From NCBI GenBank assembly GCA_016177765.1, contig JACOUP010000008.1:501021-565020 (forward strand): 64,000 nucleotides of DNA, given 5' to 3'. Every line of letters starts with the position of its first letter. The stretch's first letter is position 1. The notes beneath the pieces are model-generated. The model did not search any database, had not been told where the DNA came from, and worked only from the letters and a program-made list of their open reading frames with translations. This DNA is from Deltaproteobacteria bacterium. Lineage in GTDB: Bacteria > UBA10199 > JACPAL01 > JACOUP01. Position numbers and translations under genes: made by a program. This document shows positions 1 through 12,696 of the stretch, piece after piece.

Positions 1-415
1 TACCTGTGGAAGAATGACAAGAGTGACAACCGCGGCCTGAAAAGAGCTTTTCCCCGCGGACCGTATTCCCGGCCTGGTCAAAGTAATGAACATAGTAAAG
101 GTAGGCCACCAGACTTTCCACCTCGGCCCCTGTCAGCCTTGGCCAGATGACCTTCATCTCTGCCATCTTGGCATTCATCGTCGGGGCATGGTTTAAGAGG
201 TCACCGGCAATGGCCAACTGGGAACCGCCGATGTCGACACGACCCAAGTCATGCCCGACATGCCCCCCCTCCCCCAGGATCGCATGGCACCGGAAACACC
301 CTTTCTCCGAAAAGAGCCGCGCCCCTTCCGCTGGATTATTCGGGAAACTTGGCTGTCCAAAGGCAGTCAGAGGAGAAAGAACAATCAAACAAATAAAGAG
401 ACAAAGATAACTCAT
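1..415 (-). CDS. dihaem c-type cytochrome, 3' end outside window
   Basis: The reading frame runs from ATG at 415 off the left edge, about 138 residues. A signal peptide (hydrophobic YLCLFICLIVLSPLTAFG) is followed by two class I haem sites, CFRCH near residue 40 and CHSCH near residue 134, so the protein is exported and binds at least two haems c. Its ATG shares one base with the stop of the upstream NrfD-like gene (TGATG), making it the last visible gene of the Qrc-like operon. It resembles the mono/dihaem cytochromes that accept electrons from alternative complex III-type enzymes. The acceptor role is inferred from position; the rest of the gene is missing. Confidence 0.85.
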   Translation of the reverse strand, partial: MSYLCLFICLIVLSPLTAFGQPSFPNNPAEGARLFSEKGCFRCHAILGEGGHVGHDLGRVDIGGSQLAIAGDLLNHAPTMNAKMAEMKVIWPRLTGAEVESLVAYLYYVHYFDQAGNTVRGEKLFSGRGCHSCHSSTG

Positions 416-1758
416 CACCCTTCCCTCCCACTGAGACTCGGTTCTTCTGCACCCGGCAGGTATCCTTTCACCCGTTCATGAACCTCTTGGAGTGAACTCT
501 CCCGTCCTTCTTCAATCTCCCAGATGGAAACAATCGGAAAAATCTTGGTAAAGATCATATAAAGGAGGATGAAGGCGGCAAAACAGCCGGCGGTGATCGC
601 CAGCTCGACCAAGCTCGGATGGTAGCGCCCCATGGTGTAGGGTAGGCGTGGATTAACAAGACTCGGGACGACAATGGTGAAACGCTCCAGCCACATTCCG
701 ATAGTCACTAGGCCAGAGGCGATAACAGTCCCCGAGACGGTCCTGGTTTTTCGGTTGGCCAGGATAATCAGGGGACCGATAAAACAACAGACCACCATCG
801 TCCAGAAATAGAAGGCGTAAGGACCGAACAGTTTTGAACGAAAGATCTCCATCTCCCGCGGCTCGTTGCCGTAAAAGACGGTTAAGTGTTCGCAAAAGGT
901 GAAATAAAACCAGAGCAGGCTCATCACCAGAAGGAGAATCCCCAGATAGTTAAAGTGAATTTTTTTCAGGTACTCTTCCAGATGGTAGGCCTTCCGGATG
1001 ATGGCCATCGCGATAATCAAGGCGGCAATCCCTGAAAAAATAGCCCCGACGACAAAATAGGGGCCGAAGATGGCCGAATGCCACATCGGTTGGATCGTCA
1101 TGGAAAAGACGTAGCTGACGACCGTGTGCACCGAAATCGCCACAGGGATCACAACGACGGCCATGATGGAGATCAAGACCTCCAGAATCCGCTTCTGCCG
1201 GGGTGTCTCCTGCCAGCCGAGGGCCAAAATTCGGTAAAACCGCGGCCACTTGAGGCCGCAATCACGGAGCCGGGCGATATCCGGAATCAGGGGAAGGTAC
1301 AGGTAGATGCAGGAGGCGGTGAGATAGCAGGTGATGCTCGTCACATCCCAGAGGAGCGGCGAGGTAAAGTGCGGGTGACGGAGTACATTCAGCATACGGT
1401 CGGGGCGGCCCAGGTCAATCAAGATATTCCCGACACCAAAGAGGAGGACCATCACGGTAATCACCTCTGCTGATCGCGTGATGGCACGACGCCATTCCGC
1501 CTGGGCAATACGGAGGATGGCGGAGATCAAGGTCCCGGCATGAGAGATCCCAATGAAGAAGACAAAGTTGGTAATGTAGAGCCCCCAATAGGTCGGGCGG
1601 GAGAGCCCGGTCACCCCGAGTCCCCCAAAAAATTGGTAGAGGTAGGCCCCAACGCCGACCAACCAGACCGAAAAGAGGATGCCGGCCGTGATCCAGAACC
1701 GGCGGGTCGTCTCCAACACCGGCTTGAGGAGGACGAGATCCATCTCGTTCGTCTTCAT
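415..1758 (-). CDS. NrfD/QrcD-like integral membrane quinol-interacting subunit
   Basis: 447 residues with about ten hydrophobic segments, the usual size of NrfD/PsrC family subunits in Qrc and alternative complex III (ActC/ActF). The N-terminal motif region GISHAGTLISAILR and the HFTSPLLWD stretch are typical of the family. It lies directly after the Fe-S subunit, whose stop overlaps its start by 4 bp. In such complexes this subunit binds menaquinol in the membrane and passes electrons to the periplasmic Fe-S subunit. The gene order multihaem - molybdopterin - Fe-S - NrfD equals qrcABCD, so I infer a quinone-coupled periplasmic oxidoreductase; the direction of electron flow cannot be read from sequence. 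Confidence 0.85.
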   Translation of the reverse strand: MKTNEMDLVLLKPVLETTRRFWITAGILFSVWLVGVGAYLYQFFGGLGVTGLSRPTYWGLYITNFVFFIGISHAGTLISAILRIAQAEWRRAITRSAEVITVMVLLFGVGNILIDLGRPDRMLNVLRHPHFTSPLLWDVTSITCYLTASCIYLYLPLIPDIARLRDCGLKWPRFYRILALGWQETPRQKRILEVLISIMAVVVIPVAISVHTVVSYVFSMTIQPMWHSAIFGPYFVVGAIFSGIAALIIAMAIIRKAYHLEEYLKKIHFNYLGILLLVMSLLWFYFTFCEHLTVFYGNEPREMEIFRSKLFGPYAFYFWTMVVCCFIGPLIILANRKTRTVSGTVIASGLVTIGMWLERFTIVVPSLVNPRLPYTMGRYHPSLVELAITAGCFAAFILLYMIFTKIFPIVSIWEIEEGRESSLQEVHERVKGYLPGAEEPSLSGREG

Positions 1759-2444
1759 TCGACACCCCCCTCAGTCAGGTAAATTACCTTCGGTTCCGTC
1801 CCGAGGTCCTCCATCAAGCGAAAGGCCCGTCGGCTACGGACCAGTTGGGAGACCTCGCTTTTTGGATCATCGAGATCCCCAAAGAACATCGCCTGGGAGG
1901 GACAGATTTCAACACAGGCGGGGAGATAATCCTCCGAGATCATCTCTCTCCCCTCCACGCGGGCCTTTTCCCTCCCCTTCTGAAGCCGGTGGGAACAAAA
2001 GGTACACTTTTCAACAACCCCTTTTGGACGAACCGAGACATCACGGTTCTTCATCGGGCGCATCTCTTCCGGCCACTGCGGGTTCCGCCAGTTAAACTCC
2101 CGGACGGTGTAGGGACAAGCGGTGGTGCAATACCGGCAACCGATGCAACGGGCAAAGATCTGTCCTACAATCCCTTCCTCACTCTTGTAGGTGGCGGAGA
2201 CGGGACAGACCTTGGTACAAGGAGGGCGATCACAATGCTGACAAGGGAGGGGAAGGAGTCGAAGCCGGAGATGCGGGTACTCCCCTTCCTTCATCGGAAG
2301 GAGACGGAGCCAATGGATCGACCGTCCCTGTTCGTGCAACTGCGGGGTGGGGGGAGCGACATTATTCTCCGACTGACAGACCACCACGCAGGCCTGACAG
2401 GCGGTACATTTATCGAGATCAATCACCATTCCCCACCGAGTCAC
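1755..2444 (-). CDS. 4x[4Fe-4S] ferredoxin subunit (QrcC/DmsB-like)
   Basis: 229 residues with four cysteine clusters: CTACQACVVVC near residue 13, CQHCDRPPCTKVCP, CIGCRYCTTACP, and a CTFC with CVEICP. This is the arrangement of DmsB/PhsB/QrcC electron-transfer subunits. The start is GTG at 2444 with GGAGGAG five bases upstream. There is no signal peptide, so export as a partner of the Tat-dependent catalytic subunit is expected. It sits between the molybdopterin-family gene and the NrfD gene and should wire haem/catalytic subunits to the membrane quinone site. Family assignment is firm, complex assignment rests on gene order. Confidence 0.9.
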   Translation of the reverse strand: MTRWGMVIDLDKCTACQACVVVCQSENNVAPPTPQLHEQGRSIHWLRLLPMKEGEYPHLRLRLLPLPCQHCDRPPCTKVCPVSATYKSEEGIVGQIFARCIGCRYCTTACPYTVREFNWRNPQWPEEMRPMKNRDVSVRPKGVVEKCTFCSHRLQKGREKARVEGREMISEDYLPACVEICPSQAMFFGDLDDPKSEVSQLVRSRRAFRLMEDLGTEPKVIYLTEGGVE

Positions 2445-2456
2445 AATCTCCTCCTT

Positions 2457-2483
2457 GTACGGGCGGGGTGACCCCGCCCCTAC
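2457..2483. repeat. GTAGGGGCG-type palindromic repeat (family D), copy 1
   Basis: A near-perfect palindrome (GGGCGGGGT-G-ACCCCGCCC core) ending in CCCCTAC. It fills almost the whole gap between the molybdopterin-family gene and the Fe-S gene. Related 28-bp copies lie at 15008 and 17490. As RNA it could form a strong hairpin inside the operon and tune relative expression of the two subunits. Confidence 0.7.
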
Positions 2484-4724
2484 CTAAACCCTGTAGATCT
2501 TCACCGCCGTGATCCTCTCACGTGGCATCTCTGCGGTTGCCCAATCACCCTCCTGAATTTTTCGGACATTCTCCCCGATCCCTGCCGCATAACGCCCCAT
2601 CGCCGTGTGACCGAACCCGAACGGCATCGCCACCACCCTCGGGTGAACCCCTTCGTAGACCTTCGCAACCACCTTGATCCGTCCCACCGGGGACTCGACC
2701 CAGATCATTTCCCGATCCTTGACCCCGAACCGTGCCGCCGTCTCCGGATGGATCTCGGCCCAGCTCTTCCAGCCGATCTGGAGATGTGGCCCGGCGATAT
2801 CGGCAAGCCAGGCCTGTCCGGCGTTCCTCCCCCCGGTAAGGGCCATCAGCGGATAAGCCTGGAGGGTGAGTGGAAAATCGTCCCGACTTTTAGGGGGAAC
2901 CGCCGGAGGCAAGTCGGTCGCAAAGGCAAACTTCCCCTCCGGATTCGCAAAGACCCTCCCCCACTCCTCATAGGTGTAGGATGGGTCCCACCATCCCCCT
3001 TTTTCCTTCAAGCCTTTCTCAAAATCCTCAAGACTCTGGTAAGAGGGGGACCACCAGCCGCTACGAGCGAGGAGGGAGGTCCATGAAGATTCAAAGGAGG
3101 TCCCAAAGAGATCCCCCCTCTGGGAATCGTATATATTTTTGAGCCCCTCTTTGAGAAAATCCTGAAAGCGGTCCCAAGGAAGGGCGCTGGATACCGGTTC
3201 TCCGAGCCTCTTTGCCAACTGCAGGATCAGATCCCCTGTGTGCCGGGTCTTGTAGAGTGGGGGACGAACCGGTTGGGAGAGACCAACAAATGGGAATCCC
3301 TGCATGGTGGAGGCGGGGCAATCCTGATCCCTTTCCAAAAAGTGGTGATCCGGCAGGACGAGGTCGGAGTAAGCGGTGGTCTCGTCCATGAAGGGGGAAA
3401 AACTGACAAGAAGCGGGATCTTGTCAAGCGTCTCCCGCATTTTTTCCGGCTGGGGTGAATCACCCTGTGGGTTTGAGAAAAGGGGGTTGGTGTAATAAAA
3501 GAAGAGGAGTTCTAACTGGGCAATGGCGTTTCTGACGACCGGCTGGAATTTTTGGTGCTTCACCCAATAGTCGGCCTCTTGGGGGATGAGGACACCACCG
3601 GGGACGTTGATGCTCCCGACCAAGGCGTTCAGGGTATGGATCGCCAGCTGGTCTTTCGGTTCGAGGCGGCCGCAGACGGCAATGGCCGGTTTTGCGGAGG
3701 CGAATTCGCGCGCCAGACGGATGATGGTGTCGATCGGAACACCGGTTAACTCCGCCATTTTTTCGGGGGGGTAATTTTCCAGGATGGTGTTTTTGAAATT
3801 ATTGAAACCACTGCTGTGGCTTCCGAGATACAGACCGTCATAGAGCCCCTCCTTCAGGAGGATCGCCGCCAACCCCAGGGCGAGCAGTCCTTCCGTCCCC
3901 GGCTGGATCGGGACCCAGAGATCCGCCTTGGCCGCTGTTACCGAAAGGTGTGGGCCGATATGAACGACCCTTCCGCGAGAAGCCGGGTCGCCCCGGCGCA
4001 AGGTCGCCCACCCCCGAAGATTTTCCACCGGGGAACGACCCGCCTCGAGAAGCGGCGCCGAAAAGGAGAAAAGGATTTTTGCCTTTTCAAGGGCATAGGT
4101 CGGTTCTGCCGAGAGGCCGTGACTCTTTTCTATCGCCTCCACGGGCCCCTGCCAGGTCGCAAAACTGTTATCAAAATAATTGGGGGAACCGTACGCCTCG
4201 AGGAATTTATCAAAAAGGGTCCGCATCAGTCCCCGGTAACGTCCCCCGAGGATTCCCACCTTGTGGGATTCCTTTTTTTGGCGGAGACGGGCGAGCGGTT
4301 CCGTCACCGCGGCGATCGCCTCTTCCCAGGAGATCTCCTGCCATTTCCCCTCACCTCGGTGACCGGCTCGTTTTAATGGTTGCCGGATCCGGTCCGGGTC
4401 GTAAAAGGATAAAATCCCCGCCACCCCTTTGGGGCAGAGGGTCCCCCGATTGACCGGATGGAGGGGGTTGCCGGCAATCGACACAGGCCAGGAACCAAAT
4501 TTGCGGACACGGATCCCGCAAGAGCCGGGACAGAGCTGACAAACGGAGGTCACCCAGCTCTCCTCCCCCCGTTCAATCGCCTGTTCGATCTCCTTGAGGA
4601 CAGCGGCGGTCAAGAGACCCGACTGCGCCAGCATCAGAAAAAAAGAGCTGAGAGTGGCATTTTTCAAAAAATCCCTGCGGGTAAAACCACCTTCAGGGGC
4701 TCGCGTCTTTTTTATCGGTGACAT
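2484..4724 (-). CDS. molybdopterin oxidoreductase-family catalytic-type subunit (QrcB-like), Tat-exported
   Basis: 746 residues from the chosen ATG at 4724, which has GGAGG ten bases upstream and overlaps the preceding cytochrome gene by 13 bp; a longer frame opens at 4772. A twin-arginine signal (TRRDFLKN, residues 15-22) is followed by a [4Fe-4S] motif C62-x2-C65-x3-C69 with C97 (GTLCPKG), then the long molybdopterin-family body to the C terminus. In Qrc and alternative complex III the homologous subunit has lost molybdenum and acts as an electron conduit. Whether this one keeps the cofactor needs comparison with active enzymes. One 15-bp repeat unit is translated at residues 419-424. Confidence 0.85.
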   Translation of the reverse strand: MSPIKKTRAPEGGFTRRDFLKNATLSSFFLMLAQSGLLTAAVLKEIEQAIERGEESWVTSVCQLCPGSCGIRVRKFGSWPVSIAGNPLHPVNRGTLCPKGVAGILSFYDPDRIRQPLKRAGHRGEGKWQEISWEEAIAAVTEPLARLRQKKESHKVGILGGRYRGLMRTLFDKFLEAYGSPNYFDNSFATWQGPVEAIEKSHGLSAEPTYALEKAKILFSFSAPLLEAGRSPVENLRGWATLRRGDPASRGRVVHIGPHLSVTAAKADLWVPIQPGTEGLLALGLAAILLKEGLYDGLYLGSHSSGFNNFKNTILENYPPEKMAELTGVPIDTIIRLAREFASAKPAIAVCGRLEPKDQLAIHTLNALVGSINVPGGVLIPQEADYWVKHQKFQPVVRNAIAQLELLFFYYTNPLFSNPQGDSPQPEKMRETLDKIPLLVSFSPFMDETTAYSDLVLPDHHFLERDQDCPASTMQGFPFVGLSQPVRPPLYKTRHTGDLILQLAKRLGEPVSSALPWDRFQDFLKEGLKNIYDSQRGDLFGTSFESSWTSLLARSGWWSPSYQSLEDFEKGLKEKGGWWDPSYTYEEWGRVFANPEGKFAFATDLPPAVPPKSRDDFPLTLQAYPLMALTGGRNAGQAWLADIAGPHLQIGWKSWAEIHPETAARFGVKDREMIWVESPVGRIKVVAKVYEGVHPRVVAMPFGFGHTAMGRYAAGIGENVRKIQEGDWATAEMPRERITAVKIYRV
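3453..3467. repeat. 15-bp palindromic unit (family A), one copy in the Qrc-like catalytic subunit
   Basis: GGGTGAATCACCCTG, one mismatch to consensus. Read on the minus strand it contributes Q-G-D-S-P in a loop-like stretch of the molybdopterin-family protein. Confidence 0.75.
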
Positions 4725-5227
4725 AAAATACAATCCTCCGAGGCCCCCTTCTGCCGATGACAGCCAAGACAATCATCCATTGAAAGCTCCACTGGCGCCC
4801 GTGAAGGGGGCGTCACCCTCTCCGGCATCTTGCCATGACACGCTTCGCAAGCAACTTTGCCAAACGTGACATGCCGTTGATGAGAGAAGTAGACATGGTC
4901 CGGCAGACGGGTCAGCCTCTGCCACGGAATCTCTCCCCTCTCTTCTCCATAGAGGCGGACCTTTTCCTCTTCAGGGTTTTGGGAGAGAGGGGTGCTGTGA
5001 CAACCGAGACAGATCTCGGCCGTGGGCAAGGTGGCGAAAGGGGTTGTCTCCACCCCGACATGGCAATGGGTACAATCGAGCCCGAGACCGGCCACATGGA
5101 CCTTGTGATTAAAGGCGATCGGCTGAGAGACCCCTCGGAATCGGAGAAGGAGAATAACCACGATCAGGAGCAGAAGCCCCAAGGCAACAAAGATCCCCCA
5201 CCGCTTTTTGAAAAGTGCCGTTTTCAT
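4712..5227 (-). CDS. membrane-anchored pentahaem cytochrome c (QrcA-like)
   Basis: 171 residues: an N-terminal membrane anchor (residues 11-28) and five CXXCH sites (CTHCH, CLGCH, CEACH, CLGCH, CILCH), the last near the C terminus. The FNHKVHV and FSHQRHV stretches supply distal histidines as in class III (c3/c7) cytochromes. It is the first gene of the Qrc-like operon and overlaps the catalytic-subunit gene. QrcA proteins exchange electrons with soluble periplasmic cytochromes, and that role is inferred here. A TGAT-N4-ATCA box lies about 74 bp upstream of the start. Confidence 0.88.
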   Translation of the reverse strand: MKTALFKKRWGIFVALGLLLLIVVILLLRFRGVSQPIAFNHKVHVAGLGLDCTHCHVGVETTPFATLPTAEICLGCHSTPLSQNPEEEKVRLYGEERGEIPWQRLTRLPDHVYFSHQRHVTFGKVACEACHGKMPERVTPPSRAPVELSMDDCLGCHRQKGASEDCILCHR

Positions 5228-5294
5228 TGTCAGGATTTGAACTCTAATCTAAAGGAGAGAAACTAGATCACTATGATACCTGTCAGTGAAGGGG

Positions 5295-5308
5295 ATGATC
5301 CTGATCAT
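5295..5308. promoter_or_regulatory. FNR/DNR-type operator before the Qrc-like operon
   Basis: ATGAT-CCTG-ATCAT, a perfect 5+4+5 palindrome matching the FNR-family core TGAT-N4-ATCA. It is centred about 74 bp upstream of the pentahaem gene start, with a TATCAT sequence at 5278-5273 (minus strand) as a possible -10. It overlaps the last codons of the small membrane gene. The same arms occur at 11536, in front of the cytochrome-porin operon. Confidence 0.6.
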
Positions 5309-5409
5309 AAGGCATGCCGACTCTCAAGATAAGCCACAACAAGGAGCGAAACCAAAAAGAGGATCGTCAAGGCCCCCACAACCCGTCTCTTGGCGTTGAG
5401 CGATAACAT
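5305..5409 (-). CDS. 34-residue single-span membrane peptide after cytochrome b
   Basis: The ATG at 5409 follows the cytochrome b stop with no gap (TAGATG), and GGAGG lies about ten bases upstream inside cytochrome b. The product has a basic N terminus (LNAKRR), one strongly hydrophobic span (GALTILFLVSLLVVAYL) and a short charged tail. Position, ribosome site and composition argue for a real small subunit, comparable in kind to the single-helix peptides of bc1/b6f complexes, although I recognise no family. Translational coupling to cytochrome b is likely. Confidence 0.6.
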   Translation of the reverse strand: MLSLNAKRRVVGALTILFLVSLLVVAYLESRHAL

Positions 5410-6480
5410 CTAAACGAGCGCCTCCCAGATGGTGAGGACAAGGAGGGTTATCACCCCGATGACCCCCAGAAAAATGGAAAGATCCCTCCCGGGAAATTTT
5501 TTCACGAGGAACCGATCAATAAACGGCCAAAAGAGAAGGACCATCGCGGCAACACCGGTCCCCAGGACACCCACCTGCAACGAGGTCAGTTTGAGCCACC
5601 GAAAGGTAAAGTAAAAATACCATTCCGGCTTGATATGTTGCGGCGTCAGGAACGGGTCGGCCGGCGGCCCTAGGCCGGCCGGGAAGAAGACAACCAATAA
5701 GGTGAGAAGGAGGGCGATGAAGAGGGCGATAATTGTTTCCATCAGGAAGTGATCCGGAAAGAACGGAAAATGTTTTTTCGGTTTCCCCTTGTCCTCCTCA
5801 AACTGGTATTCGGTGACCCCAATCAAGCGAATGAGCGCAATATGCATTGTGAGCAGCAGGGTGATCGTTAGCGGCAACAGGGCGATGTGAAAGATGAAGA
5901 ACCGTGTCAGCGTATTTTCCTCGACCGAATCCCCTCCCCTCATAAAACGGGCCAGGTATTCTCCGATCAGGGGAACATTCTGGGTGATGTTGGCCGCCAC
6001 GGTCGCCCCCCAATAGGAGAGCTGTTCATAGATCAGGGAATAGCCGGTGAATCCAAAACCCAAGGTGCAGAAGAGGAGCCCGCAACCGAACATCCAGTTC
6101 AGTTCGCGCGGCTTCCGGTAGGCCCCGGTGAAAAAGATCCTCATGACATGGAGGATAACGGCAATGATCATCAGTTGGGAGGACCACTTGTGGATGCTCC
6201 GGATCACCCAGCCAAAGGAGATGTCGTAGGTGATATGCTGAACGCTCTCATAGGCATGCCCCGGATCCGGCACATAGTAAAAGGTGAGCAGGATCCCGGT
6301 CACCACCTGGATAATGAAGAGATAGGCCGGCGTCCCCCCCAGGCAGAACCACCATCTCTTGAGGTGATGAGGAACCGGTTCGCTCGAGACCTTTTCGAAA
6401 AATTCACCGGGGATCGGCGCCGAGGTGGCGAGCCACCCTTTAAAGATATTGAAGGCTCTTGAGTGAATCACCCTTCTCAC
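5410..6480 (-). CDS. cytochrome b of a bc-type quinol oxidoreductase (b6-like spacing)
   Basis: 356 residues with about eight helices. Haem-ligand pairs are H97/H111 (13 residues apart) and H198/H213 (14 apart), the second being the spacing of cytochrome b6. The quinol-site motif PEWY is near residue 285, so the b6 and subunit IV parts are fused. The start is GTG at 6480, with GAGGAAG just upstream in the preceding gene. It works with the Rieske and pentahaem proteins encoded immediately upstream, oxidising quinol at the periplasmic face. A one-mismatch 15-bp repeat unit lies at its N terminus (residues 3-7). Confidence 0.93.
   Translation of the reverse strand: MRRVIHSRAFNIFKGWLATSAPIPGEFFEKVSSEPVPHHLKRWWFCLGGTPAYLFIIQVVTGILLTFYYVPDPGHAYESVQHITYDISFGWVIRSIHKWSSQLMIIAVILHVMRIFFTGAYRKPRELNWMFGCGLLFCTLGFGFTGYSLIYEQLSYWGATVAANITQNVPLIGEYLARFMRGGDSVEENTLTRFFIFHIALLPLTITLLLTMHIALIRLIGVTEYQFEEDKGKPKKHFPFFPDHFLMETIIALFIALLLTLLVVFFPAGLGPPADPFLTPQHIKPEWYFYFTFRWLKLTSLQVGVLGTGVAAMVLLFWPFIDRFLVKKFPGRDLSIFLGVIGVITLLVLTIWEALV
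6461..6475. repeat. 15-bp palindromic unit (family A), one copy at the cytochrome b N terminus
   Basis: GAGTGAATCACCCTT, one mismatch to consensus. It is read in a third frame here, giving R-V-I-H-S directly after the GTG start. Confidence 0.65.
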
Positions 6481-7292
6481 TGATCTTCCTCCTCATAATT
6501 CTTTAAAAGCAGGATCAAGACAACAATAAGGAGGATTAAAAAGCCGGCAAAAAGGCTCCCCACCCACCACCGCGTGTGGATTTTTTTCTTGAAGGCCTCG
6601 ATCTCCCCCTCCATCTCCCCCAGCTCCTTCAAGACACCGGTCGTCTTGACCTGAATTTCTGGAAGGTCCAGCGTGTGGGTCATCTGATGGAGCGAGTTCC
6701 GGAGCGAGAACAGTTTTTCCTCCAGACGCTTGACCGGCATCCCGCGCCGTTCCACATAACGAATCGTCTCTTTCTTCTCCTGGAGTCCCAGCTCCGCCGA
6801 GACAAAGGCTTTTCTGATCTTCTGGGCATTTTTAAAACTGTGGCACTGGGAGCAGAGCGGTTCGGCAATCAGCTCCAACGAGGCCTTCTGGACATCGTGG
6901 CTGTGGTGGCAGGTAACACAGTTTGGTCCGGTGCCGTGGAGAGAAGCGGCATAGTGAGCGCTCTTCATGTAGTTTTCCTTGACCCCCACATGGCAACGCC
7001 CGCAAAATTCCGCAATCTGGTTTGGCTTAGGAGCCCCCACAAACCCGGAGGCCGGGTCCATCGCCTTTCCTTCATCGCCGGGATCGCCGCCATGGCACCC
7101 CTCACAGGTGTTCCCCATCTTTTTGTGGATGCTCTCCTCCCACAGGGTTACCGGAACGGCTAGCTTATCCCCCATCGCCTGATGACAGGAGATACAGACA
7201 GACTCCGTTTTGGTTTCTTCGGCAAAAAGACTCCCCTCGCCCAAGACTATCAGGGTCAGAACCATCAAAAAAATCCCCTTTAAGAAACCCAT
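6477..7292 (-). CDS. pentahaem cytochrome c with coiled coil and C-terminal membrane anchor
   Basis: 271 residues from ATG 7292, which overlaps the Rieske stop by 13 bp and has AAGGGGAG upstream; the longer frame to 7436 is a Rieske shadow. A signal peptide (GIFLMVLTLIVLGEGSLFA) precedes five CXXCH sites (CISCH, CEGCH, CGRCH, CVTCH, CSQCH). Then comes a charged helical region of about 100 residues that looks coiled-coil, and a C-terminal span (VGSLFAGFLILLIVVLILLL). Lying between the Rieske and cytochrome b genes, it probably replaces cytochrome c1 as the high-potential exit of the bc complex. That function is inference from operon position. Confidence 0.85.
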   Translation of the reverse strand: MGFLKGIFLMVLTLIVLGEGSLFAEETKTESVCISCHQAMGDKLAVPVTLWEESIHKKMGNTCEGCHGGDPGDEGKAMDPASGFVGAPKPNQIAEFCGRCHVGVKENYMKSAHYAASLHGTGPNCVTCHHSHDVQKASLELIAEPLCSQCHSFKNAQKIRKAFVSAELGLQEKKETIRYVERRGMPVKRLEEKLFSLRNSLHQMTHTLDLPEIQVKTTGVLKELGEMEGEIEAFKKKIHTRWWVGSLFAGFLILLIVVLILLLKNYEEEDQ

Positions 7293-7702
7293 ATCTCCCC
7301 TTCCTTGACTTCCACGTTCAGACGCTCCAACCCCTTGGGAGGAGGACCAGACAAGACCGATCCATTGGAACCAAACTTGGCGCCGTGGCAGGGGCACAAG
7401 AATTCGTTTTTGCCCCCTTCCCAGGTCACCAGACAACCGAGGTGGGAACAGACGAGTGAAAAGGCGGCATACCCCTCCTTGGAGTTGATCGCCACGGCAG
7501 GGATCCCTCGGACATGAAAACGTTTCATCCCCCCCGGCGGGAGCTCACTCAGCGGAATCTTGACAATATCCCCCCCCTTCTTTCGGGAGGGAGGTTGCAG
7601 ATAGGAAAAGACAGGGTAGAGGAGGCCGCCGGCAAAGATCGTCCCTAGGAAACCGAGACAGTAATGGAGAAATCGTCTCCTTTTTTTTAAAAAGGTTTCC
7701 AT
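7280..7702 (-). CDS. Rieske [2Fe-2S] protein
   Basis: 140 residues. One N-terminal membrane span (residues 11-33) anchors the soluble domain. Cluster motifs are C85-S-H87-L-G-C90 and C103-P-C105-H106-G, with ligands C85, H87, C103 and H106 and the usual disulphide cysteines C90 and C105. This is the high-potential Fe-S subunit of the bc-type complex whose cytochrome b follows two genes later. It is compact compared with mitochondrial-type Rieske proteins, closer to b6f-type. Only 9 bp separate it from the upstream pentahaem gene, so the two are co-transcribed. Confidence 0.95.
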   Translation of the reverse strand: METFLKKRRRFLHYCLGFLGTIFAGGLLYPVFSYLQPPSRKKGGDIVKIPLSELPPGGMKRFHVRGIPAVAINSKEGYAAFSLVCSHLGCLVTWEGGKNEFLCPCHGAKFGSNGSVLSGPPPKGLERLNVEVKEGEIWVS

Positions 7703-7711
7703 AGAATCTTT

Positions 7712-8854
7712 TTATTTCTCGGGAAGGGTGGTCTTTTCCTCGCCAAGAATAACTTTCATCTCCGTTTCGTGGATAATCCTTGGCTGGTATAAATAGTAGA
7801 GACTTAACCGGATTTCAATCTTCTTCCCTTCCGGGGCATAAAAGGTAAAATCCTCCGCCCTGACCTCTCCCGGTTCCAGCCGGTTGTCCTGGGAGACCTT
7901 GACCGCCTTGAGGAAGAGGTCCGCATCCTTGGTGATGACCTCCCCCTTCTTGTCTACCAGAATCTTTTGAAAGATCCGCTCCGCAGCATAGAGCGGGGCC
8001 CCCCCGACAAAGGCCTGCAGGCGCAAAACAAGTTTCCGCGTCGGCATCCCGGTCGGAACCTTATGACCGCTCCCAACATTTTCCAGATAAACAGTCGCGT
8101 GGATCTTGTCCCCCTCCCGCCGACTCTCACCGATCCTCAAGGTCACCGCCTTCCGGACCTGTTCAATCGAGTGCCCCCCCGCCGCCTCATGGCTGTTGAT
8201 GTAAATTTCCTGTGTCGGTTTCACCCGTGGGGGAACTACAAGCCCCTTGAGCGGGGGCATATGACAGGACTGACAGGTTTTTCCCTCCTTGGGTGAAGCA
8301 CCCTTGGCCTGCGGGCTTTTTTGCCACTCCGAAAAGGTCTCAAAGAGGGGGGCTCCATTCTTATTGGTATACTCGTGGCAACTGCCGCAGAGGCGAGACT
8401 GTTCGAAGAGATCGGAATAAGAGACCTCATGGGCCGGGGAGGTGATTCCTTTCAACGGCCCCCATTTCTTTTTGCCGATCACGACCGTCAAGGGATCGGC
8501 CGCCCCTGGTTTGGACTCCGTGACACTGTGGCAGAAATCGCAGGTGACCCCTTCCAGGGTGATCGGGTTGGTCAGATGGGTATCACGCGTCTGCCGCACG
8601 GTGGGGGCATGGCAGGAAAGACAGAGGAAATCGGTCTGGCCACCTGTCTGCCGTGAGGTCTCCAGAAAGATTGGGTAAAAAACAGGGTCAGTGACGGCAT
8701 TGGCATGCATCGATTCCTTCCATCCTTCATAAATCGCGACATGACACTCCCCGCAAACTTTCGCCGAGGTGAATCCCTCCTTGGCGAGCTCCGGAGAGGC
8801 GTGGAGGGCCCGACAGATTAAAAATAGCGAGAGGACCAACAGAAACCTTTTCAT
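7712..8854 (-). CDS. periplasmic pentahaem cytochrome c (c554-like family)
   Basis: 380 residues from ATG 8854, which forms an ATGA overlap with the octahaem gene and has GGAGG five bases upstream. A signal peptide ends near ALHA. Five CXXCH sites (CGECH, CLSCH, CDFCH, CGSCH, CQSCH) fill the first 220 residues; the CGECHVAIYEGWKESMHA opening is characteristic of the cytochrome c554/hydroxylamine-oxidoreductase-related family. The C-terminal 150 residues are haem-free and carry the GHKVPTGMPTR motif common in that group. It probably shuttles electrons in the periplasm; an enzymatic role cannot be excluded. A 15-bp repeat unit is translated at residues 183-188. Confidence 0.85.
   Translation of the reverse strand: MKRFLLVLSLFLICRALHASPELAKEGFTSAKVCGECHVAIYEGWKESMHANAVTDPVFYPIFLETSRQTGGQTDFLCLSCHAPTVRQTRDTHLTNPITLEGVTCDFCHSVTESKPGAADPLTVVIGKKKWGPLKGITSPAHEVSYSDLFEQSRLCGSCHEYTNKNGAPLFETFSEWQKSPQAKGASPKEGKTCQSCHMPPLKGLVVPPRVKPTQEIYINSHEAAGGHSIEQVRKAVTLRIGESRREGDKIHATVYLENVGSGHKVPTGMPTRKLVLRLQAFVGGAPLYAAERIFQKILVDKKGEVITKDADLFLKAVKVSQDNRLEPGEVRAEDFTFYAPEGKKIEIRLSLYYLYQPRIIHETEMKVILGEEKTTLPEK
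8291..8305. repeat. 15-bp palindromic unit (family A), one copy in the c554-like gene
   Basis: GGGTGAAGCACCCTT, one mismatch to consensus. Minus-strand translation gives K-G-A-S-P just before the fifth haem site. Confidence 0.8.
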
Positions 8855-9513
8855 TGAACCCTCCAGAGGTGAGGTTTGTGGCACTCCGTACAGGCGGCGT
8901 CTTTTTTCATCCTTCGATGGGACCCCATGCCAATTTTCTGATGGCATTCGAGACAGGTCTCTCGATTAGGCAACAGACTTTCCCTCTTGGCGAGAAAGTT
9001 ATGACAGCTGGTGCAGTGGATGAAGGCCATCTTTTTCCCAAGACCCTCTGTCTTATCGGGGTGGCAGTTGAGACAGGAATCAGTGGGTTTCAGAAATTCA
9101 TGAACACCGCCCATATGACAGTCCAAACAATCAATTCTTAATTTTTCAAAGTGAACCCTGTGCCCTGCGGTCTCCCCAACTAATTTCCACTGGGGATCCT
9201 GGCTTAAGTGACACTGGGCACAAACCTTGTGATCTAATTCGGGGTGATGAACGACTTGCCGGGGCCTTTTCGTCAAATAAAACCAAACCTGATGAACACT
9301 GGCCGAAAGAGACTGATGATGACACTCGTGACAAGTAACAAGATGATGGGGAGAAGTCGACCACTTTTTGTAGGCCGTCTCCATAATATGGCACGACTGG
9401 CAGAAGCGGGCATCGTGCTGAACGTAATCGTAGGAACGGTAGAACCCGCCCCCCACAACCATCGCTAATACCACCCCTACCCCGATAATGATCCTGCCAC
9501 GGAGGCCCTTCAC
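8851..9513 (-). CDS. octahaem NapC/NrfH-type membrane cytochrome
   Basis: 220 residues. An N-terminal anchor (IIIGVGVVLAMVVGGGF) leads into eight CXXCH sites: CQSCH, CHECH, CAQCH, CLDCH, CLNCH, CTSCH, CLECH, CTECH. The first half resembles the tetrahaem quinol dehydrogenases NapC/NrfH, and four more haems follow in a shorter repeat pattern. Such proteins carry electrons between the membrane quinone pool and periplasmic partners. It sits between the monohaem cytochromes and the c554-like gene with minimal spacing, so it belongs to the same operon. Quinol oxidation by this protein is an inference from its N-terminal half. Confidence 0.88.
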   Translation of the reverse strand: MKGLRGRIIIGVGVVLAMVVGGGFYRSYDYVQHDARFCQSCHIMETAYKKWSTSPHHLVTCHECHHQSLSASVHQVWFYLTKRPRQVVHHPELDHKVCAQCHLSQDPQWKLVGETAGHRVHFEKLRIDCLDCHMGGVHEFLKPTDSCLNCHPDKTEGLGKKMAFIHCTSCHNFLAKRESLLPNRETCLECHQKIGMGSHRRMKKDAACTECHKPHLWRVQ

Positions 9514-9523
9514 TACAACCTTT

Positions 9524-9805
9524 CTATTTCAATGTCCGGATATACTTGACCACATCCCCCACTTCCTGATCGGTTAGTTTACCCTTATAGGAAGGCATCT
9601 TCCCCTTTCCCCCATGGATCACCTTGGTCAGATCGGCCTCCGACTTTGAGGTGTCAAAAGGGGCCACCTTCATGGCGGCGTTCCCCTTCCCCTCCGCCCC
9701 GTGACACCCCTTGCACTTCTGATAGATCGCCGCCCCATCCGCATAAACAAACCCGACCACCATGAAGAAACCAAGAACCGCAAAAACCGCGGATGCTTTT
9801 TTCAT
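9524..9805 (-). CDS. small class I cytochrome c, paralogue 1
   Basis: 93 residues: signal peptide ending near VYA, one haem site (CKGCH near residue 33) and a likely distal Met in GKMPSY near residue 70, the layout of monohaem class I cytochromes. It is about three-quarters identical to the next gene upstream, so the pair is a tandem duplication. It is probably a soluble periplasmic electron carrier linking the porin-cytochrome, bc-type and Qrc-like parts of the island. Confidence 0.92.
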   Translation of the reverse strand: MKKASAVFAVLGFFMVVGFVYADGAAIYQKCKGCHGAEGKGNAAMKVAPFDTSKSEADLTKVIHGGKGKMPSYKGKLTDQEVGDVVKYIRTLK

Positions 9806-9840
9806 AACCCCTCCTGCCCGAACTTCCTTAAGCCAAAAAA

Positions 9841-10119
9841 CTATTTTAAACCGCCTTTAATATACTTGACCACATCAGCAATCTCCGGATCGGTCAGCTT
9901 GCCATGGTAGGAAGGCATCTTCCCCTTTCCCTCATGGATCACCTTGATCATGTCAGCATCGGATTTGGAAGTGTCATAAGCGGGGACCTTGATCGCCGCA
10001 TTCCCCTTCCCCTCCGCCCCGTGACACCCCTTGCACTTCTGATAAACCGCCGCCCCATCGGCCCAGACCATCCCCGACCAGAGCAGGACGGCACCGGCCA
10101 AAACTATCGCCTTCTCCAT
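9841..10119 (-). CDS. small class I cytochrome c, paralogue 2
   Basis: 92 residues from ATG 10119, chosen over an ATG at 10143 because GGAGG lies six bases upstream and the signal peptide then starts cleanly (MEKAIVLAG). One CKGCH site and GKMPSY with the likely Met ligand. Near-copy of the neighbouring cytochrome; differences cluster in the APF/PAY loop and the C terminus. It follows the cytochrome-porin gene by 40 bp and is likely its immediate periplasmic partner, an inference from order. Confidence 0.92.
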   Translation of the reverse strand: MEKAIVLAGAVLLWSGMVWADGAAVYQKCKGCHGAEGKGNAAIKVPAYDTSKSDADMIKVIHEGKGKMPSYHGKLTDPEIADVVKYIKGGLK

Positions 10120-10159
10120 AAATCGCCTCCTTTTGAAAACCACGGTTAATCACCAACAA

Positions 10160-11416
10160 CTAGAAATTAAGCTGCGTCTCCGCCCGGAGTTGGTGGGCCA
10201 TATTTTGAACCGAGCTGTCCGTGGCCTGATACTCCGCCGAGACCCTCAGGAATTTCTGGAAAGACCAGGCAATCCCCCCTGTTCCCATCCAGGTTTTGGA
10301 AGTCCCCCCGGCCTCCGCCTTGTTGGTCACATCGTCATAATCAAAACGGACCACCGCATAGAGGTTGTCCTTGATTCTCTGGTCCAGCTCCAGGAAGGAA
10401 AACCAGGAGAAGCTGTTGTCAGCGGAGACCAAGGCGGCCGTGGCGGAACCGATCCCGCTCACAAACTGGTTATCTAACCCCATTCCCACGCCCACAAGAG
10501 GCTTGAGTCCGATAGAATCAAAGGTGTAATCGCCAAAAAGATAGGCACGGTGGTACTTGGTATTGGCAGCGCCGGCGACATCCACCCCCTTGTCGTTAAC
10601 CGGATTCGGAGCCCGTCCGTAAACATAAAGAAGAGAGACACTGCCATCGCTCTCCGGAATCATGTACTCCAACAGGGCCGCAAGATCTTTGTGGTTGTTC
10701 GGATCTTCATTATCCAGAACGCTTCCCCCTGCCGCTTCAAGACCATTGGTCACCTGGACGAGCCCTGTAAAATTATGGTAAGAATAGCCTGCCTCGGCCC
10801 CTACCCCGTCATGACGCGGCCGGAAGCCGTTGACCCGAACGTCAAAAACACGGGGATTATTCAGACCTATCGGACGATCCAATCCCCCGTAGCCTACCCG
10901 TGAAAACTGGTGAAACTGACCCACCCGTGAAAAGAAGAAACTATCCGACCCTCCAAAGTTAAGATGGATGGAACCGACCTCCAAAAAGGCATGCCCCTCT
11001 TCCGGTTCGAAGGGAAGTTCAAAGAAGAAAGCCACGTTTCGCGACACCGGACCGCTGTAAAACAGGGTCACATCATGCATTTCAAAGTCAAAATCAGCCT
11101 TGGCCCCCGCGGTCTTCTGAAAGTTGACCCTCGCCCGACCCCTGGCAGAAAAATAATTCGTCATCTTGGCCATCTCATCCCAGGAAAGATCCGACTCCTG
11201 CTTGTCAAACTCGTCCGGCATCCGGTACCCCAACCTTCGAAACTTGTGCCCCATCGGATTGAGCCGGGGAATCATCGTGTGGCACATGGAACAGTCGGCG
11301 CTATACCGCCGCGCCCAGGCGGGAATCGCATGGGCCTCATTCTCGAAGACTCCGGCCACCAAGATAAAGATGGCCAGTCCGAACCCGAGAAGCACTCTTT
11401 TCAGGCTTGTCCTCAT
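10160..11416 (-). CDS. outer-membrane cytochrome-porin fusion (Cyc2-like)
   Basis: 418 residues from ATG 11416 (strong G-rich ribosome site; the frame extends to 11455). A signal peptide ends after NEAHA. The mature N terminus AIPAWARRYSADCSMCH carries a single haem site followed by PRLNPMGHKFRRLGYRMPDE. The remainder alternates polar and hydrophobic residues and ends in phenylalanine (ETQLNF), the signature of an outer-membrane beta-barrel. This plan, one haem domain plugged to a porin, is that of Cyc2-type iron-oxidising cytochrome-porins. I infer electron transfer across the outer membrane; iron as substrate is unproven. It leads the cytochrome operon and has two FNR-type boxes upstream. 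Confidence 0.75.
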   Translation of the reverse strand: MRTSLKRVLLGFGLAIFILVAGVFENEAHAIPAWARRYSADCSMCHTMIPRLNPMGHKFRRLGYRMPDEFDKQESDLSWDEMAKMTNYFSARGRARVNFQKTAGAKADFDFEMHDVTLFYSGPVSRNVAFFFELPFEPEEGHAFLEVGSIHLNFGGSDSFFFSRVGQFHQFSRVGYGGLDRPIGLNNPRVFDVRVNGFRPRHDGVGAEAGYSYHNFTGLVQVTNGLEAAGGSVLDNEDPNNHKDLAALLEYMIPESDGSVSLLYVYGRAPNPVNDKGVDVAGAANTKYHRAYLFGDYTFDSIGLKPLVGVGMGLDNQFVSGIGSATAALVSADNSFSWFSFLELDQRIKDNLYAVVRFDYDDVTNKAEAGGTSKTWMGTGGIAWSFQKFLRVSAEYQATDSSVQNMAHQLRAETQLNF

Positions 11417-11514
11417 AACCCCCCCTTTCATAATAATAAGGTTGAAACGTTTCATCGCAAAACGAACCTCGGTAGAATACGCGGTAAAACTACCTCATGC
11501 CCCGTCCAAAAAAA

Positions 11515-11526
11515 TGATTTCAATCA
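11515..11526. promoter_or_regulatory. FNR/DNR-type operator, proximal box of the cytochrome-porin operon
   Basis: TGAT-TTCA-ATCA, centred 22 bp (two helical turns) from the second box at 11537-11548, on the gene side. Same-face spacing supports cooperative binding. Confidence 0.55.
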
Positions 11527-11535
11527 GGTAAGATC

Positions 11536-11549
11536 ATGATTCTCATCAT
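11536..11549. promoter_or_regulatory. FNR/DNR-type operator, distal box of the cytochrome-porin operon
   Basis: ATGAT-TCTC-ATCAT, a perfect 5+4+5 palindrome with the same arms as the box before the Qrc-like operon. It lies about 125 bp upstream of the cytochrome-porin start. The encoded FNR-like protein at 11986-12696 is the obvious candidate regulator. Confidence 0.6.
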
Positions 11550-11571
11550 TTGTAAATCATTTTGGAACCGG

Positions 11572-11895
11572 TTAGCAGTATGGCAGTAACTGCGATTTGG
11601 AGATAAAGACCACCTGGCAATTCTGGGAGGCGGTGCAGGTGCAACAGTAGGGGTTCTCCTCGAAGAAATGAGAGAGCCCCAGGACCTCCCCCTCTGAAGA
11701 AGAAACGTGGTGTTCTGCACGGCAGGAACCGCTCTCCCTGGTATAACGAACCTTCCCTGATTGAACAATGAAGAGACCGTAGGGGATGTGCCCTTCGTAG
11801 AAGAGGACCTGCCCTTTCCGAAAAGAAAGCGGCTGTCCCTGTTTTAAGAGTTCGTTCCAGTGGGTCTTGAGCGAAAGAAGGGTTTCCTCCTGCAT
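11572..11895 (-). CDS. stand-alone cyclic-nucleotide-binding-type sensor domain, no DNA-binding domain
   Basis: 107 residues covering only the beta-roll of CRP/FNR proteins (PLSFRKGQVLFYEGHIPYGLFIVQSGKVRY), ending at a stop after LLPYC where the long helix and helix-turn-helix would normally begin. I find no remnant of the missing domain downstream. The second half is cysteine-rich (CRAEHH, PYCCTCTASQNC). It may be a decoy or partner of the complete FNR-like regulator next to it, a redox/metal sensor, or a truncated gene. A TGAT-N4-ATCA box lies 58 bp upstream. Confidence 0.65.
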   Translation of the reverse strand: MQEETLLSLKTHWNELLKQGQPLSFRKGQVLFYEGHIPYGLFIVQSGKVRYTRESGSCRAEHHVSSSEGEVLGLSHFFEENPYCCTCTASQNCQVVFISKSQLLPYC

Positions 11896-11953
11896 ACCCC
11901 TGAGGGTAGGAAATCAGCCCTCAATGGAAAATGACAAGACGCAGGAAAAAATA

Positions 11954-11965
11954 TGATTATGATCA
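11954..11965. promoter_or_regulatory. FNR/DNR-type operator upstream of the sensor-only gene
   Basis: TGAT-TATG-ATCA, 58 bp upstream of the 107-residue gene and just beyond the 3' end of the FNR-like regulator gene. Fourth box of this type in the island. Confidence 0.5.
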
Positions 11966-11985: not shown

Positions 11986-12696
11986 CTAGACTTCAATCCG
12001 GGCGGTTTCGAGAAGTGCCTTCGGGTCAAGGATGGTGATCTCCCGCTCCTGAACATCGATCAGCCCATCTTTTTTAAATTCGGAGAGGAGGCGGATCGCC
12101 GTCTCCTGCGTGATGCCGATCATCTCCCCCATCTCTTCGCGGGAGAGTTTGAGGTCGATCTGTATCCCCTTCTTAACCGTTTTCCCATAGGTCTCTTTCA
12201 GGATCAGGAGGAGTTCCGCCATCCGTTCACGAACGGAACGCTGGGCGATGCTGGTCGCCAGATCTTCCGCCTGCCGGAGTTCCTTGGCCAGCTTTTTAAT
12301 GAGATTCACCGCCAGTTCCGGATTTTTTGAAATTAACGGGAAAAAGGCATTTTTGTCGATGCAGCAGATCGTCGCCTCTTCCAGCGCCTCCGCCGTGGCA
12401 TGGTAAGGTTCTTCGGCAAAGAGGGAACGATACCCCAGAAGGGCCCCCGGGCCGGCGATCCTCACAATCTGCTGGCGCCCGTCGATCCCTGTCTTGTAGA
12501 GCTTCACCCGGCCGGTAAAAACACAATACAGGCCATAGGCCTGGTTTCCCTCATAAAAAATGGTCTGCCCTTTTTTATAATAATTGGTCGTCTTGTGCTG
12601 GTCGCATTCATGAAGGGACTCCCCCTCAAGGGAACAGAGGACCCCCAAGATACGGGACTTACAGGTTTCACAATCCAGCCTTGGCGTTTTGTTCAC
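11986..12696 (-). CDS. CRP/FNR-family transcription regulator, FNR-like
   Basis: 236 residues. The N terminus has cysteines C9, C12, C21 and C31, reminiscent of the FNR iron-sulphur ligand region though the spacing differs; CC near residue 110 could supply another ligand. The central beta-roll (residues 35-120) and dimerisation helix are followed by a helix-turn-helix whose recognition helix reads TQETAIRLL. Its Glu and Arg match FNR E209 and R213, which contact TGA in the half-site. It should bind TGAT-N4-ATCA boxes and control the adjacent cytochrome operons in response to oxygen or redox state. The signal sensed is inferred. Confidence 0.85.
   Translation of the reverse strand: MNKTPRLDCETCKSRILGVLCSLEGESLHECDQHKTTNYYKKGQTIFYEGNQAYGLYCVFTGRVKLYKTGIDGRQQIVRIAGPGALLGYRSLFAEEPYHATAEALEEATICCIDKNAFFPLISKNPELAVNLIKKLAKELRQAEDLATSIAQRSVRERMAELLLILKETYGKTVKKGIQIDLKLSREEMGEMIGITQETAIRLLSEFKKDGLIDVQEREITILDPKALLETARIEV

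Follow-up and report, generated by a model that had tools for sequence, protein, structure and literature searches.

Which regulator do the short inverted repeats between the cytochrome operons of this Deltaproteobacteria bacterium serve? The window considered here, a stretch of 64,000 nucleotides of contig JACOUP010000008.1 (positions 501,021 to 565,020), carries a Qrc-like operon, a cytochrome-porin operon, the gene of an FNR-type regulator and, next to it, a gene encoding a sensor domain only. An earlier note on this DNA had placed four TGAT-N4-ATCA boxes around these genes and proposed that they make up an FNR-type regulon. Our analysis supports this proposal, since the box is conserved before the same gene, is enriched in intergenic DNA only and precedes respiratory targets, and since the genome has a single detected DNA-binding regulator of the Crp/Fnr type. 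An FNR-type regulon acting on tandem operators is, in our opinion, the likely best explanation of the whole, and the boxes themselves are very probably, judging from sequence, the operators of the adjacent regulator.

Boxes in the window and across the class

The window contains seven TGAT-N4-ATCA boxes against 0.87 expected (100 shuffles, with a largest count of 3 and none reaching 7), and the chance level of about one box per 64 kb estimated earlier was thus correct. Three boxes lie within genes, at 1164, 12111 and 53916. The other four (5296-5307, 11515-11526, 11537-11548 and 11954-11965) are intergenic, and the genes downstream of them are all on the minus strand. The coordinates bear out the places reported before, namely one box before the Qrc-like operon, two before the cytochrome-porin operon and one before the sensor-only gene; the first of these had been given as 5295-5308, a 14-mer (ATGATCCTGATCAT) that encloses the box 5296-5307. 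On the other hand, their description as four single sites did not hold, because the boxes mostly belong to tandem pairs in a 22-base-pair (bp) register and two partner sites had been missed. The resulting set is the following:

5296..5307, FNR-type box TGATCCTGATCA, in front of the Qrc-like operon; the c7-like cytochrome gene (4712-5227) starts 74 bp from its centre
5274..5285, partner FNR-type box TGATACCTGTCA, a 7/8 match whose distance from the box at 5296 is exactly 22 bp
11515..11526, FNR-type box TGATTTCAATCA, gene-proximal half of an exact tandem pair before the porin gene
11537..11548, FNR-type box TGATTCTCATCA, distal half of the exact pair, 22 bp centre to centre
11954..11965, FNR-type box TGATTATGATCA, before the sensor-only gene, its centre 64 bp upstream of the ATG
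11932..11943, degenerate partner site, a 5/8 match, exactly 22 bp gene-proximal of the 11954 box, with the class-wide form CTG-N7-TCATT

The two centres before the porin operon (11520.5 and 11542.5) are 65 and 87 bp from the annotated porin start, though the true start may be about 39 bp further in. The perfect box at 12111-12122, inside the regulator gene, encodes the residues MIGIT of the regulator's own helix-turn-helix (HTH) and recurs in relatives. As it recurs probably for coding reasons, it was set aside as an operator.

Conservation was assessed in the surroundings of FNR orthologues from 20 genomes of the class, picked by protein similarity only. Their intergenic DNA (47 kb) contains 33 boxes where 1.48 are expected, as compared with 11 against 7.65, near chance, in the coding DNA of the same loci (263 kb). 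No other 4-base inverted repeat in this intergenic DNA (spacers 0-16, runs of N set aside) is as enriched as TGAT-N4-ATCA, and the TGAT half-site occurs at most three times at any other spacer. The comparison of motif density proposed by the earlier note was also carried out in the own genome, where 13 of the 77 boxes are intergenic compared with about 8% of the sampled DNA, a roughly 2-fold excess. Of 92 class half-sites, 91 have A or C ahead of TGAT and one has T. The class site is [AC]TGAT-N4-ATCA[GT]; the TGAT-N4-ATCA core described before is therefore retained, but the classical TTGAT-N4-ATCAA form is not.

The most constant box-bearing target across the class genomes is the promoter of the sensor-only gene. 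This gene was found in 19 of them, mostly adjoining fnr, and a box precedes it in all 19, exact in 16 and matching at 7/8 in three; in 10 genomes it is centred between -62 and -66 relative to the start. In some genomes the sensor-only gene and fnr are divergent, so that one box may serve both. CTG-N7-TCATT is conserved at the 22-bp position from the box in these promoters, the partner being reduced to TG..TCA in most of them. In one such promoter (genome G006, locus L042), three boxes follow one another in 22-bp steps (-85, -63 and -41 relative to the start).

The same site is found outside the class. The nearest named relatives of the regulator are encoded by metagenome-assembled genomes (MAGs) labelled Deltaproteobacteria, followed by Bacteroidota regulators at about 44% identity, and the Bacteroidota FNR loci contain 42 boxes at spacer 4 against 4.45 expected, an enrichment specific to this spacer. 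A MAG titled Saccharospirillaceae (L178) groups with Flavobacteriales and Cryomorpha genomes, and its title looks wrong; the 100 genomes of that group are used below as a background.

The 22-bp register

The spacing of exactly 22 bp between centres, noted earlier for the pair before the porin operon, recurs across the class genomes. A scan for two exact boxes lying 1-30 bp apart in 46 of these genomes returned 17 pairs, nine at gap 10 (centres 22 bp apart), two at gap 11 and one at gap 12. If gaps were uniform, nine of 17 pairs at one named gap out of 30 would have a binomial probability of 1e-9; the gap had been named beforehand from the earlier note, and two of the nine pairs are in the own genome, one of them being the note's own pair. 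The gap-10 pairs precede a cytochrome and NarG-like operon (G004, G009), a NarG-like gene (G014), porin-cytochromes (G000, G014), an fnr paralogue (G033), a histidine kinase (G008) and others. When a loose partner (at least 6 of 8 bases) was allowed and an exact pair was counted twice, the 33 intergenic boxes of the class loci gave 21 partner hits at exactly 22 bp, corresponding to 20 distinct tandem promoters, against a mean of 0.63 per distance. Coding boxes had such a partner in 1/12 and 0/64 cases. A similar arrangement is observed in Bacteroidota, with 37 partner hits at 22 bp for the 42 boxes of the FNR loci against a mean of 1.29, and 7/15 exact pairs genome-wide at this spacing; the background level in 100 genomes of another Bacteroidota order, not sorted by presence of this FNR, was 1/31 pairs at gap 10. 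With these data in hand, we are highly confident that the 22-bp tandem rule is a real, selected feature.

In Escherichia coli K-12, seven regions with 11 FNR-controlled promoters contained no best site with a 22-bp partner scoring at least 6, with the caveat that the script's best site for nrfA, frdA, napF and fdnG may differ from the characterised one; none of the 13 exact boxes in these regions had a 22-bp partner either. Tandem FNR sites do occur in this species, reportedly at -40.5 and -93.5 in yfiD, as Barnard, Green and Busby are said to have described in 2003. These promoters resemble ours in having two FNR dimers each and differ in geometry, the spacing here being a constant 22 bp throughout a class. 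The second E. coli site sits at a greater upstream distance and has a repressing effect at positions from -85 to -95 (PMC11264516). Among open-licence papers, nothing on point was found for tandem or 22-bp FNR operators or for an HTH-less FNR, and there was no text match for TGATNNNNATCA.

Since 22 bp corresponds to two helical turns, the two dimers would lie on the same face of the DNA. Whether the rule reflects a pair of cooperatively binding dimers is, from sequence and spacing, about an even bet. Two placements can be considered. A distal box at -41.5 would give the E. coli-like distances (-64 before the ATG) and leave its partner under the polymerase; a proximal box at -41.5 fits the Bacteroidota pairs, which are 52-57 and 74-79 bp before the start. 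If two phyla do follow a strict 22-bp tandem rule, this operator architecture would be new for a much-studied bacterial regulator.

The regulator, its probable targets and its signal

Only one gene with a Crp-type HTH over the cut-off was detected in the genome (96.5% complete), the one other protein with cyclic nucleotide monophosphate (cNMP) domains being a 632-aa frame with two of them. The adjacent regulator is thus the natural owner of the boxes, allowing for the missing 3.5% of the genome. Residues C9, C12, C21, C58 and C111, as well as Q197, E198, I201 and R202, are invariant in 16 aligned class orthologues, and the recognition Glu and Arg and the N-terminal cysteine set pointed out before consequently hold across this alignment. 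In a profile search against PDB, the family aligned end to end with the solved FNR structures 5cvr and 5e44 (3e-33), from Aliivibrio fischeri, and C9, C12 and C111 fall on the cluster cysteines of the solved protein. E198 and R202 occupy the FNR recognition positions, whereas an Ile is present where FNR has Ser212 (E. coli numbering). Ser212 of E. coli FNR helps recognise the outer base of the site, and a link between Ile at this position and loss of the outer T is a direct prediction of specificity.

Scores against NCBIfam models were below their cut-offs (Fnr NF008365, 99.7 of 228 bits; FnrL NF045989, 110.1 of 300 bits), indicating that the regulator is FNR-type but not an equivalog of E. 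coli Fnr. The best of these models, Rhodobacter FnrL, aligns over the full length (7-232) but with only 110 bits for a cut-off of 300. Judged by its sequence marks, namely a predicted beta-roll with a Crp-type HTH, four cysteines, the recognition Glu/Arg and TGAT-N4-ATCA sites before respiratory genes, the regulator is of the FNR type. Within the FNR family the outer base is a variable point of specificity, and losing the T is no bar to FNR-type function. The E. coli FNR regulon shares with the present one the Crp/Fnr fold, a CxxC...C motif with a C122-type cysteine, the recognition Glu/Arg, the TGAT-N4-ATCA core, nitrate-reductase-type targets and, in several promoters, a box about 65 bp before the start codon (narK -66, nirB -65, focA -67). 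It differs in its consensus TTGAT-N4-ATCAA, with a flanking T where A/C is found here, in Ser212 instead of Ile, and in the absence of the 22-bp pairs seen here.

The own genome (1.92 Mb) contains 77 TGAT-N4-ATCA boxes, whose contexts were all read with a purpose-written codon-based gene caller; 64 are coding, about the chance level, and 13 intergenic. Seven of the latter are clustered within 35 kb of the contig (C8:478357-512985). A second exact 22-bp pair, at C8:478357 and 478379 (L109:12358-12391; G000:C8:478357-478390), lies between an Rrf2-like gene and a twin-arginine translocation (Tat)-type gene of the type II dimethyl sulfoxide (DMSO) reductase/NarG-like kind. The pair precedes the latter, which is accompanied by the gene of its beta subunit, and downstream there are a chaperone-like gene and molybdenum-cofactor genes. 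coxB, part of a cytochrome c oxidase operon, is preceded at 42 bp by a single box (C8:486101). A further perfect box (G000:C8:1129377, L121:3378-3389) was noticed upstream of a large beta-barrel-like protein containing nine CxxCH motifs, in 1.3 kb of DNA where no gene was called. Within the window, the units concerned are as follows (Pfam and NCBIfam assignments):

415..5227, minus strand, Qrc-like operon: c7-type multihaem cytochrome (4712-5227), QrcB-like molybdopterin protein (2484-4772), iron-sulfur (FeS) protein (1755-2444) and NrfD (415-1758)
5410..11455, minus strand, cytochrome-porin operon: porin with one CxxCH (10160-11455), two mono-haem c cytochromes, three multihaem cytochromes (one NrfH-like), a Rieske protein and cytochrome b
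11572..11895, minus strand, sensor-only gene, 107 aa, cNMP-like (Pfam PF00027, 2.4e-15)
11986..12696, minus strand, FNR-type regulator, 236 aa (PF00027, 4.6e-24; PF13545, 1.3e-19)

The first operon has the gene set of the Qrc menaquinone reductase (cytochrome, molybdenum-cofactor protein, FeS protein and NrfD), but its QrcB-like protein reached 309 bits with the NCBIfam model, under the curated cut-off of 440. The porin-like protein (431 aa) had no family match in Pfam/NCBIfam, so that its name, taken from its appearance, is provisional.

From these comparisons we infer that the regulator binds the boxes, and does so cooperatively, that it ligates a cluster and responds to oxygen, and in which direction it acts on its targets. 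At low oxygen, the regulator would probably hold an Fe-S cluster on C9, C12, C21 and C111, dimerise and bind [AC]TGAT-N4-ATCA[GT]. It could then switch on the cytochrome-porin and Qrc-like operons, the type II DMSO-reductase/nitrate-reductase-like operon and the sensor-only gene, and probably also control the cytochrome c oxidase operon through its single box. At most promoters, two boxes would accommodate two dimers side by side, whose binding may be cooperative. An oxygen response through an Fe-S cluster seems probable on the strength of the aligned cysteines. Such a scheme amounts to a transcriptional code, open to testing, for this class of uncultured respiratory bacteria, with one regulator, one site and a list of target operons; no experiment on this class was found among open-licence papers.

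Several observations weigh against this scheme. The intergenic excess in the own genome is only about twofold, and genomes that carry this FNR cannot be told from those that lack it by counting ATGAT-N4-ATCAT genome-wide, raw counts being uninformative because most copies are coding. The Bacteroidota loci are in part near-duplicates, many from Chitinophaga, and hence not independent. Gene starts were taken from a simple purpose-written caller, and no clear -10 element was seen at a fixed distance from the box, with only weak TAnnnT matches. The third N-terminal cysteine follows a spacing of x8 in the regulator versus x5 in solved FNR. Finally, CTG-N7-TCATT in the sensor-only promoters could be a core-promoter feature and not a second FNR site.

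This last point leads to the view that only the strong box of each pair is functional, with CTG-N7-TCATT, 22 bp away, belonging to the core promoter or to another factor. A strong box at -41.5 would indeed put the partner near -19.5, under RNA polymerase, and the degeneracy of the partner in most sensor-only promoters points the same way. However, exact pairs with both boxes perfect peak at 22 bp in two phyla, the Qrc partner in the window matches at 7/8, TG and TCA occupy the very positions expected for a second box, and random coding boxes have no such partner, which makes a single functional site unlikely. Nor is the box, an 8-base palindrome, at all credible as a chance pattern picked by eye in a favourable stretch: its 77 genome copies, 64 of them coding at about the chance level, would suit such a view, but it is contradicted by independent genomes, in which the box is conserved, specific to one spacer and set in the 22-bp register.

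The nature of the signal is a separate matter. DNR is among the solved relatives of the regulator and belongs, like NnrR and HcpR, to the Crp/Fnr family; it is not known to have the FNR cysteine set, which is invariant here. FNR-like regulators with similar sites respond to nitrogen oxides (PMC1274295, where DNR, NnrR and HcpR are described). The boxes could then be bound by the regulator in response to nitric oxide, nitrate or redox state, its cysteines serving some other chemistry, and the nitrate-reductase-type operons among the targets as well as the extra invariant cysteine C58 would agree with this. On the other hand, CxxC-x8-C and C111 are invariant in the 16 class sequences, with C9, C12 and C111 aligned to the FNR cluster cysteines, and a cytochrome oxidase is among the box-bearing operons. 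A nitrogen-oxide or redox signal therefore appears quite unlikely, and oxygen sensing through the cluster remains the preferred reading.

The sensor-only protein and a repeat in the window

The sensor-only protein is modelled as a Crp/Fnr-type beta-roll without dimerisation helix or HTH (AlphaFold2 predicted local distance difference test, pLDDT, 88.7), and is 32% identical to the regulator's own sensor domain over 82 residues. Its PDB neighbours are cyclic-nucleotide-binding (CNB) domains. It shares the CNB beta-roll fold with cAMP-binding proteins but differs from them in its phosphate-binding cassette, which is devoid of the Arg-Ser/Thr; compared by eye with the family pattern, the window protein has PYCCTC at this place. 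No such protein was found beside the Bacteroidota FNRs. That it acts as a feedback partner of FNR is a guess, and a rather doubtful one. A broader and still tentative proposal is that this FNR lineage, present in Bacteroidota and in an uncultured class once counted among the Deltaproteobacteria, acts through two dimers bound to a tandem operator of fixed spacing, giving more switch-like anaerobic control, and that in the class a truncated FNR sensor-domain paralogue under the tandem operator feeds back on it. In any case, the conservation of an HTH-less partner gene that shares this operator adds a puzzling element to anaerobic control.

Apart from the boxes, a palindromic mini-repeat, TTGGGTG-N3-CACCCTT (GGGTGNNNCACCC), is interspersed in the window at 3453, 8291, 14437, 14452, 23842, 23857, 29036, 30891, 32857, 39480, 39495, 43741, 44631, 52729, 55430, 55445 and 58735. 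It often occurs as two copies in tandem at 15 bp, and many copies lie in predicted genes, where they are read as VNHP-type peptides. None was present in 294 kb of class relatives, as against about 100 copies in the 456 kb of the own genome examined.

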